DNA of 56,390 nt, from assembly GCA_024641475.1 (NCBI GenBank), contig JAHECZ010000002.1:1-56390 (forward strand), written 5' to 3'. The notes under the pieces are model-generated. The model made no database searches and had not been told where the DNA came from. It saw only the letters and a program-made list of their open reading frames with translations. This stretch comes from Gammaproteobacteria bacterium. Lineage in GTDB: Bacteria; Pseudomonadota; Gammaproteobacteria; UBA6429; Thiohalophilaceae. Of this stretch, positions 17,656 through 22,671 are shown in pieces (position 1 is the stretch's first letter; each line of letters opens with the position of its first letter). Both the position numbers and the translations under genes were made by a program.

Positions 17656-18105
17656 TTATGGTGTGAAGAGTACCGGTTGTGTCGCACGTTTGACCAGGGT
17701 CTTGGCTAGCCCCTTGAGACTGGGCCGGCCACTCACCTGGAACACCCGTTTGCTGGTGACCAACAGTTCTGTTTCCGGTTCTGAGGCAAGCTTGCTCAAG
17801 ATATCTGTCGGATCGCCCGCCAGCACCGTGAACTGCGATTGCGGCACCGATTGACCTACCGCTTCTTCAAACTGCGTTTGAGCGGCTTGTGCCTGTGCTT
17901 CCTGTTCTGCCCGCATGTAGTCCAGAAAGCCCTGCCGCGCACCTTTGGATGATTGCCAGTCATTACCAATGTAATCCGGCCAGTTGCCGTCGATAACAAA
18001 AACGCCCGCCAGCGTCATGTGACGCTGACGGGCGACCGTTACAGCCTGCTCAATCGCCGCAGCAGAAACCTCTGAACCATCTACTGCTACAACGATATGC
18101 TTCAT
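17656..18105 (-). CDS. Universal stress protein (UspA superfamily), module 1
   Basis: A 149-residue single-domain Usp fold. The first strand is HIVVAVDGSEVSAAAIEQA, a central 'DPTDILSKLA' follows, and the C-terminal region ends in the strand TQPVLFTP. The ATP-binding Gly-rich loop (G-2x-G-9x-G-S/T) is not obvious: the equivalent segment reads LLVTSKRVFQVSGRPSLKGLAKTL, so nucleotide binding is uncertain. The ATG at 18105 is preferred since AGGTGA sits 5 nt upstream and overlaps the stop of the microprotein gene. It is the third gene of the YeiH-microprotein-Usp unit. Usp proteins next to transporters often act as regulatory subunits; that role is an inference here. Confidence 0.85.
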   Translation of the reverse strand: MKHIVVAVDGSEVSAAAIEQAVTVARQRHMTLAGVFVIDGNWPDYIGNDWQSSKGARQGFLDYMRAEQEAQAQAAQTQFEEAVGQSVPQSQFTVLAGDPTDILSKLASEPETELLVTSKRVFQVSGRPSLKGLAKTLVKRATQPVLFTP

Positions 18106-18114
18106 CATGATCAC

Positions 18115-18270
18115 CTATTTCATGTTTATGACGACAATGACTGCCACAATGAGAATGGAAACGATAATTGCGCCCCAATCTTCACTACGATCATCCTTGA
18201 ACAGTGTCATTTTGCTTTTTGCATCAGCACTGCCCATGGTTTCACTACCCACTTTTTCGTTTGTTGCCAT
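18115..18270 (-). CDS. 51-residue single-pass membrane microprotein, module 1
   Basis: A short gene with a strong Shine-Dalgarno (GAGGAG, 7 nt before ATG 18270) lies 16 nt after the transporter stop, ending at TAG 18115-18117. The product has a polar N-terminal half (starting MATNEKVGSETMG), a charged motif TLFKDDRSEDWGA at residues 22-34 and one hydrophobic helix (IIVSILIVAVIVVI, 35-48) ending in NMK. The same motif occurs in the 39-residue protein encoded at 20910-21029, also right after a YeiH-type transporter, which argues strongly that both are real. I do not recognise a described family; an accessory subunit of the transporter is the natural inference. Confidence 0.8.
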   Translation of the reverse strand: MATNEKVGSETMGSADAKSKMTLFKDDRSEDWGAIIVSILIVAVIVVINMK

Positions 18271-18286
18271 GTTCGTTCTCCTCAAA

Positions 18287-19483
18287 TTAGATTGCGACGA
18301 GATAGTCTTTAATCAGGAATACCACGACCAGTGCCAATACGTACTTGGTGACACCAACGAGTAAACCGATCTTCAGTGGAGTACCACCGGCGCGAGCCAG
18401 CTCTTTGATATCGATATAGGCACCCAAACCAACCAGGCCGAAACCGAATACCCACTGCATCACATCCCGCAACATTTTGATCGTGGCTGAGGCAGGAGGT
18501 CCGCCTTTAATACCGGCATCGCCAAATGCGCCGAAGCTGGTCAGCAGTACCATTGCCATGAAACCAAGGACGAACACCGGGAATTTTTCCACCAGTAAGG
18601 TACCCAGCGATTTTTTCTGCGCTGAAGTGCCGCTGGTTTGTCCTGCCCAGTACCAAACCGTTACGGCAAAGACGGCAAACGGGATGGATATAACACGCAT
18701 GATGTTCCAGATTTCACCGACAGAAACTGCGGTGCCTGGTGCAACATTCGGGTTAAATGCCAAACATGCCGCCAGAACCTGACCGGAGTTCAGAATACCG
18801 GTACCTACCCAGGCACCGTATTGCAGATCCGTCAAACCTAACGCATGACCAATGAACGGGCTGATAAACATGGTGAGAATACCAAAACCCAAAATGGTCG
18901 CAATGGCATACGCAACTTGTGCTCCTTTGGCTTCAACCGCAGGTGAGGTGGCAACCGCCGCACTCACACCGCAAATCGACAAGGCATTGGCAAGGACACC
19001 GGTCATGGAACGATCCAGACCCATTACTTTACCTAACCACAACACCATTACGATGGTCATTACGACGAATCCACCAATCAGGAAGATTGCCATCGAACCT
19101 AATTGCACAATGGCCTGCACAGTGTAGAGCGAGCCCAGCATGATGATACCGGTCTTGATCATCAAACGCGCCAGTTTAAATCCATCGGATAAAACCGCCG
19201 GTATGGTTCCGCTAAAAATCACATTCCGGTAAAGCATGCCAGCGAGAATTCCCAACAAGATATAATTCAAATGGGTAACCTGCACCAGCCAGCCTTTTGT
19301 TCCAAACAGCACAGCAGTTTTCATCCAGGCTTCAATCCCCTTGAAACCGAAAATATCCATACCTGGATAACCTTTGATAATTACTAACGTAATAACAATC
19401 AGCGCAAGTCCTGGAATCGCCCCTGGCAAACGCGCCAAAAAGCTATCTTTTCCCGACGCTGAGCCCATTGCTTGAACGGACAT
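18287..19483 (-). CDS. YeiH-family transporter (putative sulfate exporter family), module 1
   Basis: A 398-residue polytopic inner-membrane protein of Pfam family PF03601 (YeiH; often called 'putative sulfate exporter', though the substrate is not well proven). Family landmarks are SICGVSAAVATSPAVEAKG near the middle, GAWVGTGILNSGQVLAA, and the C-terminal FGFGLVGLGAYIDIKELARAGGTPL. About ten hydrophobic segments are visible. The SD GGAGG stands 6 nt before the ATG. It heads a three-gene unit with a microprotein and a Usp. A paralogue at 21049-22671 heads a similar unit. Confidence 0.85.
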   Translation of the reverse strand: MSVQAMGSASGKDSFLARLPGAIPGLALIVITLVIIKGYPGMDIFGFKGIEAWMKTAVLFGTKGWLVQVTHLNYILLGILAGMLYRNVIFSGTIPAVLSDGFKLARLMIKTGIIMLGSLYTVQAIVQLGSMAIFLIGGFVVMTIVMVLWLGKVMGLDRSMTGVLANALSICGVSAAVATSPAVEAKGAQVAYAIATILGFGILTMFISPFIGHALGLTDLQYGAWVGTGILNSGQVLAACLAFNPNVAPGTAVSVGEIWNIMRVISIPFAVFAVTVWYWAGQTSGTSAQKKSLGTLLVEKFPVFVLGFMAMVLLTSFGAFGDAGIKGGPPASATIKMLRDVMQWVFGFGLVGLGAYIDIKELARAGGTPLKIGLLVGVTKYVLALVVVFLIKDYLVAI

Positions 19484-19536
19484 AATGACCTCCTCAGGTG
19501 GTTAGTAAAATTCCGCCATCGCCTCATGACGGTCTA

Positions 19537-19618
19537 TTAGTTATTTCTAATATTTCTATTTGTATTAATCATTCTTATAGGCGAACCGAATCTACCACCC
19601 AGAAAAAAAAATGGGAAG
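19537..19618. promoter_or_regulatory. Conserved regulatory region upstream of transporter 1
   Basis: Two elements also found before transporter 2 occur here. One is the box TTAGTTATTTCTAATAT (19537-19553), 15 of 17 positions identical to the copy at 22748. The other is the dyad CCCA-N10-TGGG (19598-19615), followed by AAG and preceded by GGCGAA and TCTACCA. The TTAG...CTAA box fits the T-N11-A form of LysR-type sites, and YeiH genes are often controlled by a LysR regulator (YeiE); the link is inferred. The rest of the 254-bp gap is AT-rich, with an AACTTAA/TTAAGTT inverted pair at 19632 and 19659. Confidence 0.55.
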
Positions 19619-19737
19619 CATCATGAAAAAAAACTTAAAAGAGGATCTTAAGCGGAAATTAAGTTTCGAAATAAAATATTCGTTTCACTTTATGTATCTC
19701 TTGACAACAAATATTTATTTCTTGTGAAGAACAATAA

Positions 19738-20373
19738 TTAAGAATGCTCAATCTGGTAAATCATCAAGACAAACAGGAAAAATAAAAATTCAACAAACGT
19801 AATAACACACAACAACCAAACAATTCGCCGTGATGCCGGTTTCATTGGTATCCACACTCGACGAATATACCATCTCCATCCTGGCAACCAGGACCAGCGC
19901 TTCAACCGTAGACAATACAAACGCAACGTTTCACCCCAGGCGGCAAGACTTTTATCTACTTCTTCCAGATGCTGTTCACGTTCTGTTGGCGACAGAACTT
20001 CGTAATCATCGGTCAAGATCAATTTGCTACCGGAGATAGTCGGTTCGATTGTAAACACCGTACGTTTTTTAATTCCGTGATCGTATTGCACTGTTAACCC
20101 TGGCACGCTTTCCTGCGACACCACCAAATTAGTCTGCAAGTTTGTTTGGTTACTATGGTTCTCAAAATCAGCATACCAGTTGTTGGCGCCAGTCTGATTA
20201 AATTGTTTGAATACATAATATGGATTGAGACGATACAACGCCTCAACATCCTGACAGACCACTGCCAGTTCTGCCGGTGTCAGAGGTGTTGGAATACTAA
20301 CCCAGGCCGCATCACTGGAATCAATTGGTGGCCTCTGCTCTGATGCCGTCTGTTCGCTAACCGGATTAGTCAT
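19738..20373 (-). CDS. Unrecognised membrane-anchored protein, module 2
   Basis: A 211-residue protein. The first 25 residues are polar. A soluble part of about 140 residues follows, with alternating strands (VFTIEPTISGSKLILTDDYEVL) that looks like a SRPBCC/START-type lipid-binding fold, then a tryptophan-rich basic stretch (LKRWSWLPGWRWYIRR) and one or two C-terminal transmembrane helices (WLLCVITFVEFLFFLFVLMI). The fold call is a visual guess. ATG 20373 lies inside the preceding Usp gene (8-nt overlap), so translation is probably coupled; no good SD is present. It is the last gene of module 2 and has no counterpart in module 1. Confidence 0.7.
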   Translation of the reverse strand: MTNPVSEQTASEQRPPIDSSDAAWVSIPTPLTPAELAVVCQDVEALYRLNPYYVFKQFNQTGANNWYADFENHSNQTNLQTNLVVSQESVPGLTVQYDHGIKKRTVFTIEPTISGSKLILTDDYEVLSPTEREQHLEEVDKSLAAWGETLRLYCLRLKRWSWLPGWRWYIRRVWIPMKPASRRIVWLLCVITFVEFLFFLFVLMIYQIEHS

Positions 20374-20833
20374 GTGGATAGGGTGCAACCAACAGCGGCA
20401 CATGAATCTCTCTGAATATACTGTCATCCAGCATGCGTGAGTTTAATCCGGTTTTAGCTTTGGGACGATGCGAACCCATCACGATCAAATCCACGGGACC
20501 TTTTGCAGCACACGTTATCAGGCATTCGGTGGGCTTCCCTTGTACGATTTCATATTCATAGGTGATCTTACTCTGCCCGGTTTCTTGCAGCATGCGTTTT
20601 ATGTGGGCGCGAACTTCCTGCTCCAACTGAGATTCCAGATAATTACCGAATGTCTCTCGGGTGGACGCATTATTCAACCAGTCATCTCCCATGGTGCCTT
20701 TCCAGAAATCCGGCACAACAATCAGGTGATGCAAGATCGTATCGGTGTTACAAAATGTATAGGCCAGTTTCTCCGCCGCGTGCGCTCCATCGGTATCGTG
20801 GCTGGCCAATAGAATATGTTTTACTTTCAACAT
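20366..20833 (-). CDS. Universal stress protein (UspA superfamily), module 2
   Basis: A 155-residue Usp-fold protein: first strand VKHILLASHDTDGAHAAEKLA, long amphipathic helix ESQLEQEVRAHIKRML, and a C-terminal DLIVMGSHRPKAKTGLNSRMLDDSIFREIHVPLLVAP. The segment GSHRPKAKTGLNSRMLDDS matches the position of the G-2x-G-9x-G-S nucleotide loop but lacks its glycines, so ATP binding is doubtful. SD AAGGG stands about 9 nt before ATG 20833; a longer frame to 20884 runs through a terminator hairpin and is rejected. It follows the second microprotein gene and overlaps the next gene. Confidence 0.85.
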   Translation of the reverse strand: MLKVKHILLASHDTDGAHAAEKLAYTFCNTDTILHHLIVVPDFWKGTMGDDWLNNASTRETFGNYLESQLEQEVRAHIKRMLQETGQSKITYEYEIVQGKPTECLITCAAKGPVDLIVMGSHRPKAKTGLNSRMLDDSIFREIHVPLLVAPYPHD

Positions 20834-20862
20834 GATTTGGCCCTTCTGTATGGCAAAAAGAA

Positions 20863-20890
20863 GCCCCAGTGGCCGTAAGACCACCGGGGC
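20863..20890 (-). terminator. Terminator-like hairpin inside module 2
   Basis: On the minus strand GCCCCGGTGG pairs with CCACTGGGGC (one mismatch, 8-nt loop) and is followed by TTCTTTTTG. It sits between the microprotein gene and the Usp gene, 30 nt before the Usp start. It probably terminates part of the transcripts, making transporter plus microprotein more abundant than the Usp, or acts as an attenuator. Confidence 0.7.
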
Positions 20891-20909
20891 GTTCAGAGTC
20901 GTACTTTAG

Positions 20910-21029
20910 TTAAACAAACATATACACCAGAGCAGCCAGGATCAGTGATATCACCAGTGCTCCAAGATCTTCCAAGCGATCATTACGGAAGATCGTTAAT
21001 GCCGTACCTCGATCAAATTTATCTTTCAT
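20910..21029 (-). CDS. 39-residue single-pass membrane microprotein, module 2
   Basis: A 40-codon gene starts at ATG 21029 with GAGGT 8 nt upstream, 19 nt after the transporter stop, and ends at TAA 20910-20912. The product begins MKDKFDRG, then has the motif TIFRNDRLEDLGA (residues 12-24) and a hydrophobic helix (LVISLILAALVYMFV) reaching the C-terminus. Aligned with the 51-residue protein of module 1, it shares T-x-F-[KR]-[DN]-D-R-x-E-D-x-G-A and a serine four residues later. Orientation is probably N-in by the charge distribution. It is likely a small regulatory or assembly partner of the YeiH-type transporter; function is inferred from context only. Confidence 0.8.
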   Translation of the reverse strand: MKDKFDRGTALTIFRNDRLEDLGALVISLILAALVYMFV

Positions 21030-21048
21030 GACATTTACCTCGCATTAA

Positions 21049-22671
21049 TCAGACGATTTCTTTGACGAAAAGCAAGACCACGACCAGCGCGCCTATCGCC
21101 TTGACGGAACCCACCACCGAGCCAATGATCAACGGATGACCGCCAGCTTGTTTGATGGAGGCCATGGTGATCTGCATACCAAGTCCGATCAGACCGAAGG
21201 TAAAGAACCAGGCAATCAAGTTACGGAACTTCCCGATCTTCGGTGCGGTGTGATAGACCGCCTTATGCGACTCTTTCAGCACATGGGTCGCTTCTTTCGA
21301 AAGGACTTTCGCATTGGTAATACCGCGAATCTTGACATCATCTTCGATAGACATAACTTTTTTATTGTCGATCAGATTCTGTAAGGCTACTTTTCGGTCG
21401 GCTTCCTGCACCTTATCGAGTTCTGCTTTGAGTAACGCTACTTGATCATCTTTCAAGAGTTTACTTTTGACCTTGCCATCTTTGGTTTCAGTCATCACTT
21501 TATCGCTGTTATCGAAGTATTTGCCCTTATAGTGATGTTCCGGTGCAAACATGCCGGTTGAGCCCAACACAAACATCACGATGAATCCCAGCACGAACAA
21601 GGGGAACTTGGCGAAAATTACCTTGCTGAGTTCCACTTTCTCACCGGTGGATTCACGTTTCACATACCAAACCGCCAGCCACAACACGATGATGGGCAGG
21701 AACAAGATACGAGTGATATTGAATATCTCAGCTACCTTCAGTGTGTCGATACCGTTCGGTTCGAACGCCAATGCCGCTCCGGCAACTTGTGCAGAATTCA
21801 GGATACCGGTACCAGCCCAAGCACCAAACTGCGTGGGATTCATGCCCATTGCTTTCCCAACGATGGGGAAGATGAACATCATCAACACACCCCACAGCAG
21901 GATGGTTCCGATGGTGTAGGCAATTTCCGTGGATTTGGCGTTGACCACCGGCGCTGAAGCAACCGTGGCAGATACACCACAGACACCCATACCTGCAGAT
22001 AACACCCCACCCATGGAATTCGGAATATTCCGGCGCGCACCCATCCATAACACCATGCCGACAGAACCTAATACGAAGACGGCAATCAGAATAATCGACA
22101 GACCAGCCAGATTCGCCAATTCACCCCAGCTATACAGCACACCCAGAAGAATCACACCGGTTTTGAGGCCAAGACGTGACAAACGTACGCCATTGGCTGC
22201 CCAGTCGGGTACCTTGAACACATTCACGACGATGATACCAGCCAGAATACCCATCACCACATAGTTCAGGTTCATGACTTTGGCAAAATCAAATGCCCAG
22301 TCCAGTTTGGCATCCTTCATAGCGCCTTCTGCCGCTTTACCCCACGCGTGCATCAATGGGTCAAAACCCCATTTCACGAAAAAGGCGATGAGTAAAATGA
22401 ACATCACACCACCGACTGTGGACAAGTAGTAATCTAAATTACCTTCTTTTGGCTTTACCGCCATCTGCCAAAGACCGACAACGATAGCAATGATGCCGCA
22501 CACAAATGGCATCATTATCATCTCACCCGGTGCACCGGGTTTGCCAACATACTTTGAGGTATGCAGCATATGGATCAGGGGGTCCAGGACACCGGCCTGC
22601 ACCATATAGCCGAAAGCTAACATGATGATGCCTATTATCAGTGTCCAGGGAGTTTTTTGCGTGTATGTCAT
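21049..22671 (-). CDS. YeiH-family transporter with hydrophilic insertion, module 2
   Basis: A 540-residue PF03601-type transporter, about 140 residues longer than the module 1 copy. Shared motifs are VCGVSATVASAPVVNAKS (230-247), GAWAGTGILNSAQVAGAA (283-300) and TFGLIGLGMQITMASIKQAGGHPL (491-514). Extra sequence comes from two added N-terminal helices and a charged, lysine-rich segment around residues 375-480 (DKVMTETKDGKVKSKLLKDD and onward) between late helices, probably a soluble loop. SD GGAGG lies 5-6 nt before the ATG. The substrate is unknown; the family label 'sulfate exporter' should be read with caution. Confidence 0.85.
   Translation of the reverse strand: MTYTQKTPWTLIIGIIMLAFGYMVQAGVLDPLIHMLHTSKYVGKPGAPGEMIMMPFVCGIIAIVVGLWQMAVKPKEGNLDYYLSTVGGVMFILLIAFFVKWGFDPLMHAWGKAAEGAMKDAKLDWAFDFAKVMNLNYVVMGILAGIIVVNVFKVPDWAANGVRLSRLGLKTGVILLGVLYSWGELANLAGLSIILIAVFVLGSVGMVLWMGARRNIPNSMGGVLSAGMGVCGVSATVASAPVVNAKSTEIAYTIGTILLWGVLMMFIFPIVGKAMGMNPTQFGAWAGTGILNSAQVAGAALAFEPNGIDTLKVAEIFNITRILFLPIIVLWLAVWYVKRESTGEKVELSKVIFAKFPLFVLGFIVMFVLGSTGMFAPEHHYKGKYFDNSDKVMTETKDGKVKSKLLKDDQVALLKAELDKVQEADRKVALQNLIDNKKVMSIEDDVKIRGITNAKVLSKEATHVLKESHKAVYHTAPKIGKFRNLIAWFFTFGLIGLGMQITMASIKQAGGHPLIIGSVVGSVKAIGALVVVLLFVKEIV

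Follow-up and report, generated by a model that had tools for sequence, protein, structure and literature searches.

Among transporters of the PF03601 family, YeiH of Salmonella has a reported sulfite phenotype, with resistance (PMC12880088), and for Hyphomicrobium a second report gives a 526-fold higher YeiH transcript with thiosulfate and suggests sulfite export (PMC11582611). That a universal stress protein (Usp) can act on a transporter has a precedent in TeaD, which modulates TeaABC (PMC9006882). Here we analyzed a 56,390-nucleotide (nt) stretch of DNA (contig JAHECZ010000002.1, positions 1 to 56,390; the window) from a Thiohalophilaceae gammaproteobacterium (assembly GCA_024641475.1). 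Between groEL and glnE, its minus strand bears two adjacent units with PF03601 transporters: unit A, with transporter, microprotein, Usp and a fourth protein in the order T1-m1-U1-D, and unit B, in the order T2-m2-U2. The gene order is real, conserved and specific to one PF03601 subfamily, which is a candidate exporter of sulfite and/or sulfate. A first-pass annotation had described the locus as an old, retained duplication of a transporter-microprotein-stress protein module; that observation was real and, taken as a whole, is partly confirmed.

PF03601 loci were surveyed, with those of the window included; loci were told apart by the C-terminal 70 residues of the transporter (T). Relatives of T1 (58–77% identical) came from Muproteobacteria, Sulfuricaulis, Acidiferrobacterales, Betaproteobacteria and other groups. 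Using profiles for the microprotein (m), Usp (U) and D that were built partly from loci later counted with them, we found a microprotein gene directly downstream of T in 66/66 T1-type and 4/4 T2-type loci and in 0/23 other PF03601 loci, the last picked mostly for low PF03601 score or kinship and not at random. Where enough DNA lay downstream (at least 800 nt for the T2 type), a Usp gene was present in 61 of 62 T1-type and in all three T2-type loci, compared to one of the 23 others; both partners were missing in 22 of these 23. D was present in 44 of the 45 T1-type loci with at least 1,500 nt downstream, in none of three T2-type loci and in none of the three other loci with 1,500 nt downstream. 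Across 398 genomes of the phylum, PF03601 was found in 188 and the microprotein was solid in 10, every time adjoining a T1- or T2-type gene; a further microprotein match (G114, E = 0.005) lay in a locus without a transporter and was put down to chance. The first-pass annotation had proposed surveying PF03601 loci in other genomes for a short open reading frame (ORF) followed by a Usp gene. What it named as refuting, other PF03601 genes lacking both partners, was observed for PF03601 as a whole; an association across the whole family was rejected, and the pairing holds for one divergent subfamily. Because T, m and Usp form a conserved unit, a functional partnership among the three is likely, and the single complex proposed earlier may be the form that it takes.

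Several loci deviate from the common layout. One distant PF03601 locus (L139, genome G621) bears a T-U-D operon on the minus strand (T at 1468–2787, D at 402–968) without a microprotein, the D homologue lying within its 1,467 nt of downstream sequence; this arrangement suggests that T-U-D may be an older core. A one-contig genome (G727) has two distant T1-type copies (L120 and L140), the second without a Usp gene within 1,005 nt downstream. In the draft genome G005, T1 is broken across two reading frames (L020/L026/L046), through either assembly error or decay. Two environmental metagenome-assembled genomes titled Bordetella parapertussis (L063 and L068) bear the operon among the Betaproteobacteria, and these titles look misassigned.

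Both transporters exceeded the PF03601 gathering score of 24.5 bits, T2 with 167.3 bits and T1 with 159.2 bits, and they are the only PF03601 genes found in the window's own genome (draft, 97% complete). The two share 43% identity over a 284-column alignment; T1 is the longer, with additional N-terminal helices and, before the last helices, a ~100-residue insert that T2 does not have. The NCBIfam model of YeiH (TIGR00698) was matched by 31/31 members of a transporter alignment (best E = 4.8e-26), with the window's transporters below its cut-off. The earlier label of YeiH family is thus accurate in the sense of PF03601 membership and does not extend to YeiH proper. T1 and T2 are best explained as belonging to two branches within one divergent subfamily of the putative sulfate exporters (PF03601), a subfamily borne mainly by sulfur-oxidizing Proteobacteria. 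Plasmid searches gave nine records at 28–33% identity over 40–46% of T1, none T1-type in look. In a different PF03601 type (L028, L029 and L045), a small Cys-containing ORF of ~66–83 residues lies, with a pattern around GLNxxSS common to all three loci, just downstream of the transporter and is possibly another dedicated partner.

Residues F14, D17, R18, E20 and D21 of m1 are invariant in a 28-row alignment, and m1 and m2 have an F-x-x-D-R-x-E-D core in common. The longer motif given in the first-pass annotation, F-[KR]-[DN]-D-R-x-E-D-x-G-A, contains this core and is too narrow for relatives: even a looser form, F[KR][DN]D[RKE]..D.G[AG], occurred in only 2 of 50 other loci (a set that includes a few microprotein-less loci and one contig twice), since the usual reading in relatives is [SNT]DR.ED..A. 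Pfam and NCBIfam gave no credible match: at most 3 of 28 members hit any one family, and the best E was 0.0082, to one member. The single membrane helix of m1 is our reading of the residues and not a tool prediction. The microprotein is under purifying selection, with a median ratio of nonsynonymous to synonymous substitution rates (dN/dS) of 0.19 (224 usable of 268 non-independent pairs, three of them above 1).

Between m and U, T1-type loci commonly bear a hairpin resembling an intrinsic terminator. The m-U gap was measured in 62 T1-type loci; in the 54 whose gap is 40 nt or longer, which leaves out eight shorter gaps and all four T2-type loci, a hairpin with a folding free energy (dG) of −15 or below was found in 42, compared to 102 of 2,700 dinucleotide shuffles (3.8%). 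Stem sequences vary between lineages. In T2-type loci, the m-U gap is short in 4/4, and a hairpin lies instead in the start of the U2 coding sequence in 3/4 (dG −24.6 to −32.7; none found in L094). The case for unit B is weaker because 10 of the 86 U1 coding starts checked also have a hairpin of this kind. In the arrangement that we propose, T-m would be the main transcript, and the hairpin would let only part of transcription through to the genes for Usp and, in T1-type operons, D, whose products would be made at lower dose.

The Usp partners are degenerate. Both exceeded the PF00582 gathering score of 24 bits (U2 with 54.6 bits, U1 with 30.0 bits), and they are 22% identical over 152 columns. 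A profile of 30 relatives matched MJ0577 (1.9e-9) and TeaD (2.3e-5) in the PDB. ATP-binding Usps of the MJ0577/TeaD type have the motif G-2x-G-9x-G-(S/T). This canonical motif was present in 0/64 distinct complete Usps, also when the long spacer was set to 8 to 10, and an ATP-driven role of the Usp was rejected on this count; a [GA][DNT]DW element was found in 64/64.

D had been overlooked in the first-pass annotation. The structure model of D reached a predicted local distance difference test (pLDDT) score of 91, and Foldseek matched it to COXG, START and polyketide-cyclase folds (best E = 1.4e-5 with probability 1.0, to a COXG-family protein; TM-scores by target reached 0.72 in the 50 matches listed). 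On this model, D is predicted to have an SRPBCC/START helix-grip fold followed by a long C-terminal helix. At the sequence level, the window's D matched no Pfam family, Polyketide_cyc2 was matched by 5 of 29 relatives (best E = 2.5e-4), and no credible sequence relatives of D were found in the PDB (best E = 0.53).

The same data bear on the idea that the genes are linked for expression only, with m, Usp and D not bound to the transporter and m being, for example, a free membrane stress peptide. The partners are separable, D being present in 0/3 T2 units and the microprotein missing from the T-U-D operon of L139, and the hairpin sets T-m apart from U-D. Yet the microprotein is solid only beside T1/T2 genes (10/10 genomes), is kept with T in both branches, and has conserved residues and low dN/dS; we regard linkage for expression alone as improbable.

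Bacteria that oxidize sulfur with Dsr and Apr produce sulfite and sulfate intracellularly, and the exit of these anions is, to our knowledge, poorly settled. In a class sample of 369 genomes, taken as the same sample for both searches, T1/T2-type genes were found in 23 and strong dsrA (E ≤ 1e-80) in 117. dsrA was present in 18/23 carriers and 99/346 non-carriers (Fisher p = 2.8e-6, in a test without correction for phylogeny and with the genus of the window among the genomes counted). The 23 carriers belong to 17 families, 14 of which have a dsrA-positive carrier. In a wider set of 44 carriers, including three T2-only genomes and the L139-type G621, strong dsrA was found in 34, aprA in 36 and at least one of dsrA, aprA and soxB in 42; soxB was sought in 12 of the 44, namely 10 without strong dsrA and two of the window genus. 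Among dsrA-negative non-carriers, soxB was found in 1/20. The two carriers without a sulfur marker are G157 and G621, the latter 64% complete.

Since T1/T2-type genes are found mainly in sulfur oxidizers that make these anions in the cytoplasm, sulfite/sulfate export would be their most likely function. The first-pass annotation had cautioned that the name 'sulfate exporter' has little proof; the sulfite phenotype of YeiH and the distribution now favor a sulfur-oxyanion role, with transport itself still a proposal. We consider it an even call that the T1/T2 subfamily exports sulfite/sulfate with a microprotein subunit and attenuated regulators. The transporter would export sulfite and/or sulfate from the cytoplasm, the compartment in which Dsr and Apr form these anions. 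The microprotein, encoded on one transcript with the transporter, would be its dedicated one-helix subunit and would probably stabilize or gate it through the charged DRxED head. Usp and D, at their lower dose, would probably be regulators and not ATP-driven parts: the Usp would regulate the transporter as TeaD does TeaABC, without the canonical ATP site, and D, tethered to the membrane, might detect a hydrophobic ligand there. More tentatively, and with well under even confidence, the operon could be a dedicated end-product exporter, that is, an obligate T-m pair with Usp and SRPBCC regulators kept low by a conserved terminator, providing a missing last step, the exit of sulfite/sulfate, for cytoplasmic oxidation of sulfur by Dsr/Apr.

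Several observations weigh against sulfite/sulfate export with attenuated regulators. T1 (82.2 bits) and T2 (77.4 bits) lie well under the 232.6-bit cut-off of TIGR00698. SRPBCC domains usually bind hydrophobic ligands, which is no obvious fit to an anion exporter. The Fisher test given above takes no account of common descent. G157, which bears unit A and is assembled in one contig at 100% completeness, lacks dsrA, aprA and soxB alike at the thresholds set. aprA is as frequent in carriers (36/44) as in dsrA-positive non-carriers (29/36; the first 36 of the 99 in list order), and therefore gives no information on sulfate versus sulfite. Carriers are a minority of dsrA genomes (18/117 in the class sample), so other exporters must serve elsewhere. 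No repeated sulfur genes were seen among the neighbors of T1/T2 genes in the loci clustered. Finally, 12 of the 54 roomy T1-type loci and the eight with short gaps have no m-U hairpin.

The fold of T1 was compared with known transporters using a structure model with a pLDDT of 79. VIA-align placed NapA first (Z = 14.5), with SbtA of the SbtA-SbtB complex at Z = 14.3 (254 residues) and Z = 14.2 (253 residues); the 50 rows listed ranged from Z = 14.5 to 10.8, in a tool with which helical models score high anyway. The fold neighbors include NapA, NHA2, NHE1, CitS and bile-acid transporters. Foldseek returned nothing at E = 0.001 or better for the T1 model (best E = 0.01), and no PDB sequence relatives of T were found at E up to 1. 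The model suggests a fold class in agreement with the clan of PF03601 (PMC8562792).

These neighbors could point to a stress-gated antiporter of the Na+/H+ or organic-acid type, regulated by the Usp and general for lithotrophs, with no relation to sulfur oxyanions. The Usp partners would fit such a transporter, as would G157, in which unit A occurs without any of the three sulfur markers. The sulfur-oxidation marker in 42/44 carriers argues against it, as does the sulfite phenotype of a PF03601 relative (PMC12880088), and we judge an antiporter of this kind unlikely.

The alignment with SbtA raises a second option, namely that the substrate is bicarbonate or some other carbon compound used in autotrophy, as for SbtA with its soluble regulator SbtB, and that the link to sulfur is a by-product of lithoautotrophy. 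A RuBisCO-family match was indeed found in 31/44 carriers (that of G474 weak, 2e-22). However, RuBisCO did not separate carriers from dsrA-positive non-carriers (32 of the same 36) and was, if different at all, less frequent in carriers (p = 0.06), twelve carriers have sulfur markers without RuBisCO (including 5/5 of family f66), and NapA scores as high as SbtA, so that SbtA does not stand out by fold. A Pfam scan of T1 and T2 at E up to 1 returned PF03601 only, plus a sub-cut-off Arm match for T1, and not PF05982, which we take to be the family of SbtA. Because RuBisCO is, if anything, less frequent in carriers and twelve carriers with sulfur markers are without it, sulfur oxidation is a better common denominator of carriers than carbon fixation, and a carbon substrate appears highly improbable.

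The two units do not appear to have arisen by duplication in place. A sister species (G001) has the arrangement groEL-T2-m2-U2-glnE-ilvE; groEL and T2 are direct neighbors there, and unit A is missing. In a transporter tree of 99 rows (a quick method without bootstrap; 16 truncated or overly short rows were removed), the T1-type sequences formed one group (73 rows; Shimodaira–Hasegawa-like approximate likelihood ratio test (SH-aLRT) 97) and the T2-type sequences another (4 rows; SH-aLRT 100). The window's T1 grouped with Muproteobacteria, Sulfuricaulis and G510 (SH-aLRT 99), and T1 sequences from its own family fell elsewhere in the T1 group. Several outgroup rows sit on very long branches, which leaves relations outside the two groups, including T2 as sister to T1, unsure. 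The G001 locus and the transporter tree together make a tandem duplication in place, the origin first proposed, unlikely. Given a G001 locus without unit A and the placement of T1 outside its own family, the T1 operon was therefore most likely brought in, presumably by horizontal transfer, beside a resident T2 unit; the alternative is loss of unit A in G001, with a horizontal origin elsewhere.

A conserved wider neighborhood was rejected. With strict clustering of 45 T1/T2 loci, no outside gene recurred in more than six, apart from antisense ORFs over the operon itself (12). Looser ORF clustering of 50 loci, some of them without T1, gave sensor-type ORFs in eight, response regulators in six, eno in six and a symporter-like sensor ORF in five. 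In L041, L042 and L051, response-regulator-like genes lie on the same strand 241–381 nt upstream of T1, and it is possible that an upstream response regulator controls the operon in some lineages.

The features of the two units are collected in Table 1. The strand, coordinates, transporter lengths and PF03601 and Usp assignments given in the first-pass annotation were all reproduced. D overlaps the end of U1 by 8 nt. The most likely start codons are ATG at 18270 for m2, ATG at 20833 for U1 and ATG at 18108 for U2, with GTG at 18114 as an alternative for U2. The labels groEL, glnE and ilvE are readings from the ORFs, with no tool behind the names.

Table 1 Features of units A and B in the window.
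Feature	Description	Coordinates	Strand	Basis
T1	Long-form PF03601 transporter, 540 aa	21049..22671	−	PF03601, E = 1.5e-46
m1	Microprotein, 39 aa; charged DRxED head and one putative hydrophobic helix	20910..21029	−	28-row alignment, read from sequence
Hairpin m1/U1	Intrinsic-terminator-like; 12 pairs, loop of 4, T-rich tail	20863..20890	−	Window scan
U1	Degenerate universal stress protein, 155 aa	20366..20833	−	PF00582, E = 9.1e-7
D	Predicted SRPBCC/START-like domain and C-terminal long hydrophobic helix, 211 aa	19738..20373	−	Structure model, Foldseek
T2	Short-form PF03601 transporter, 398 aa	18287..19483	−	PF03601, E = 5.1e-49
m2	Microprotein of the m1 family, 51 aa	18115..18270	−	Microprotein profile, 2.9e-16 (m2 is one row of that profile)
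U2	Degenerate universal stress protein, 150 aa	17656..18108	−	PF00582, E = 2.2e-14
Hairpin in U2	Within first quarter of the U2 coding sequence; 14 pairs, T-rich tail	18003..18034	−	Window scan

With its own transporter, microprotein and regulators, the operon is a testable candidate for the exit of sulfite and sulfate and a possible genome marker. Its microproteins form a family covered by neither Pfam nor NCBIfam and linked to a single transporter subfamily, and its layout places a terminator-like hairpin between the genes for transporter and microprotein and those for the putative regulators. No description of this operon was found in literature searches of open-licence PMC papers.

Compared to known systems, the microprotein resembles AcrZ of AcrZ-AcrB (PMC7267776), KdpF, CydX and CcmD by analogy, as a tiny one-helix protein that may be dedicated to a membrane machine; none of these families appeared in the Pfam and NCBIfam scans of m, which is the extent of the comparison. 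SbtA-SbtB may resemble the T1 model in overall fold (Z about 14), has a soluble partner protein, and differs in that SbtB is PII-like and not a Usp and that Pfam assigns T1/T2 to PF03601 and not to the SbtA family. TeaABC-TeaD of Halomonas elongata likewise has a Usp gene beside a transporter, and TeaD is among the PDB matches of our Usp profile; unlike T1/T2, TeaABC is a tripartite ATP-independent periplasmic (TRAP) transporter for ectoine, and TeaD binds ATP, while none of the 64 Usps analyzed here has the canonical ATP motif. In the YeiH/SuyZ family (PF03601, TC 2.A.98), sulfite resistance is published for YeiH and sulfite/sulfate export is proposed for SuyZ and the Hyphomicrobium YeiH; T1 and T2 resemble this family in their PF03601 match and sulfur-linked distribution. 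They stand apart from it in scoring 77–82 bits where the YeiH model needs 232.6, in the extra N-terminal helices and insert of T1, and in their microprotein, Usp and, for T1, SRPBCC partners, a set of which microprotein and Usp are both missing from 22/23 other PF03601 loci.

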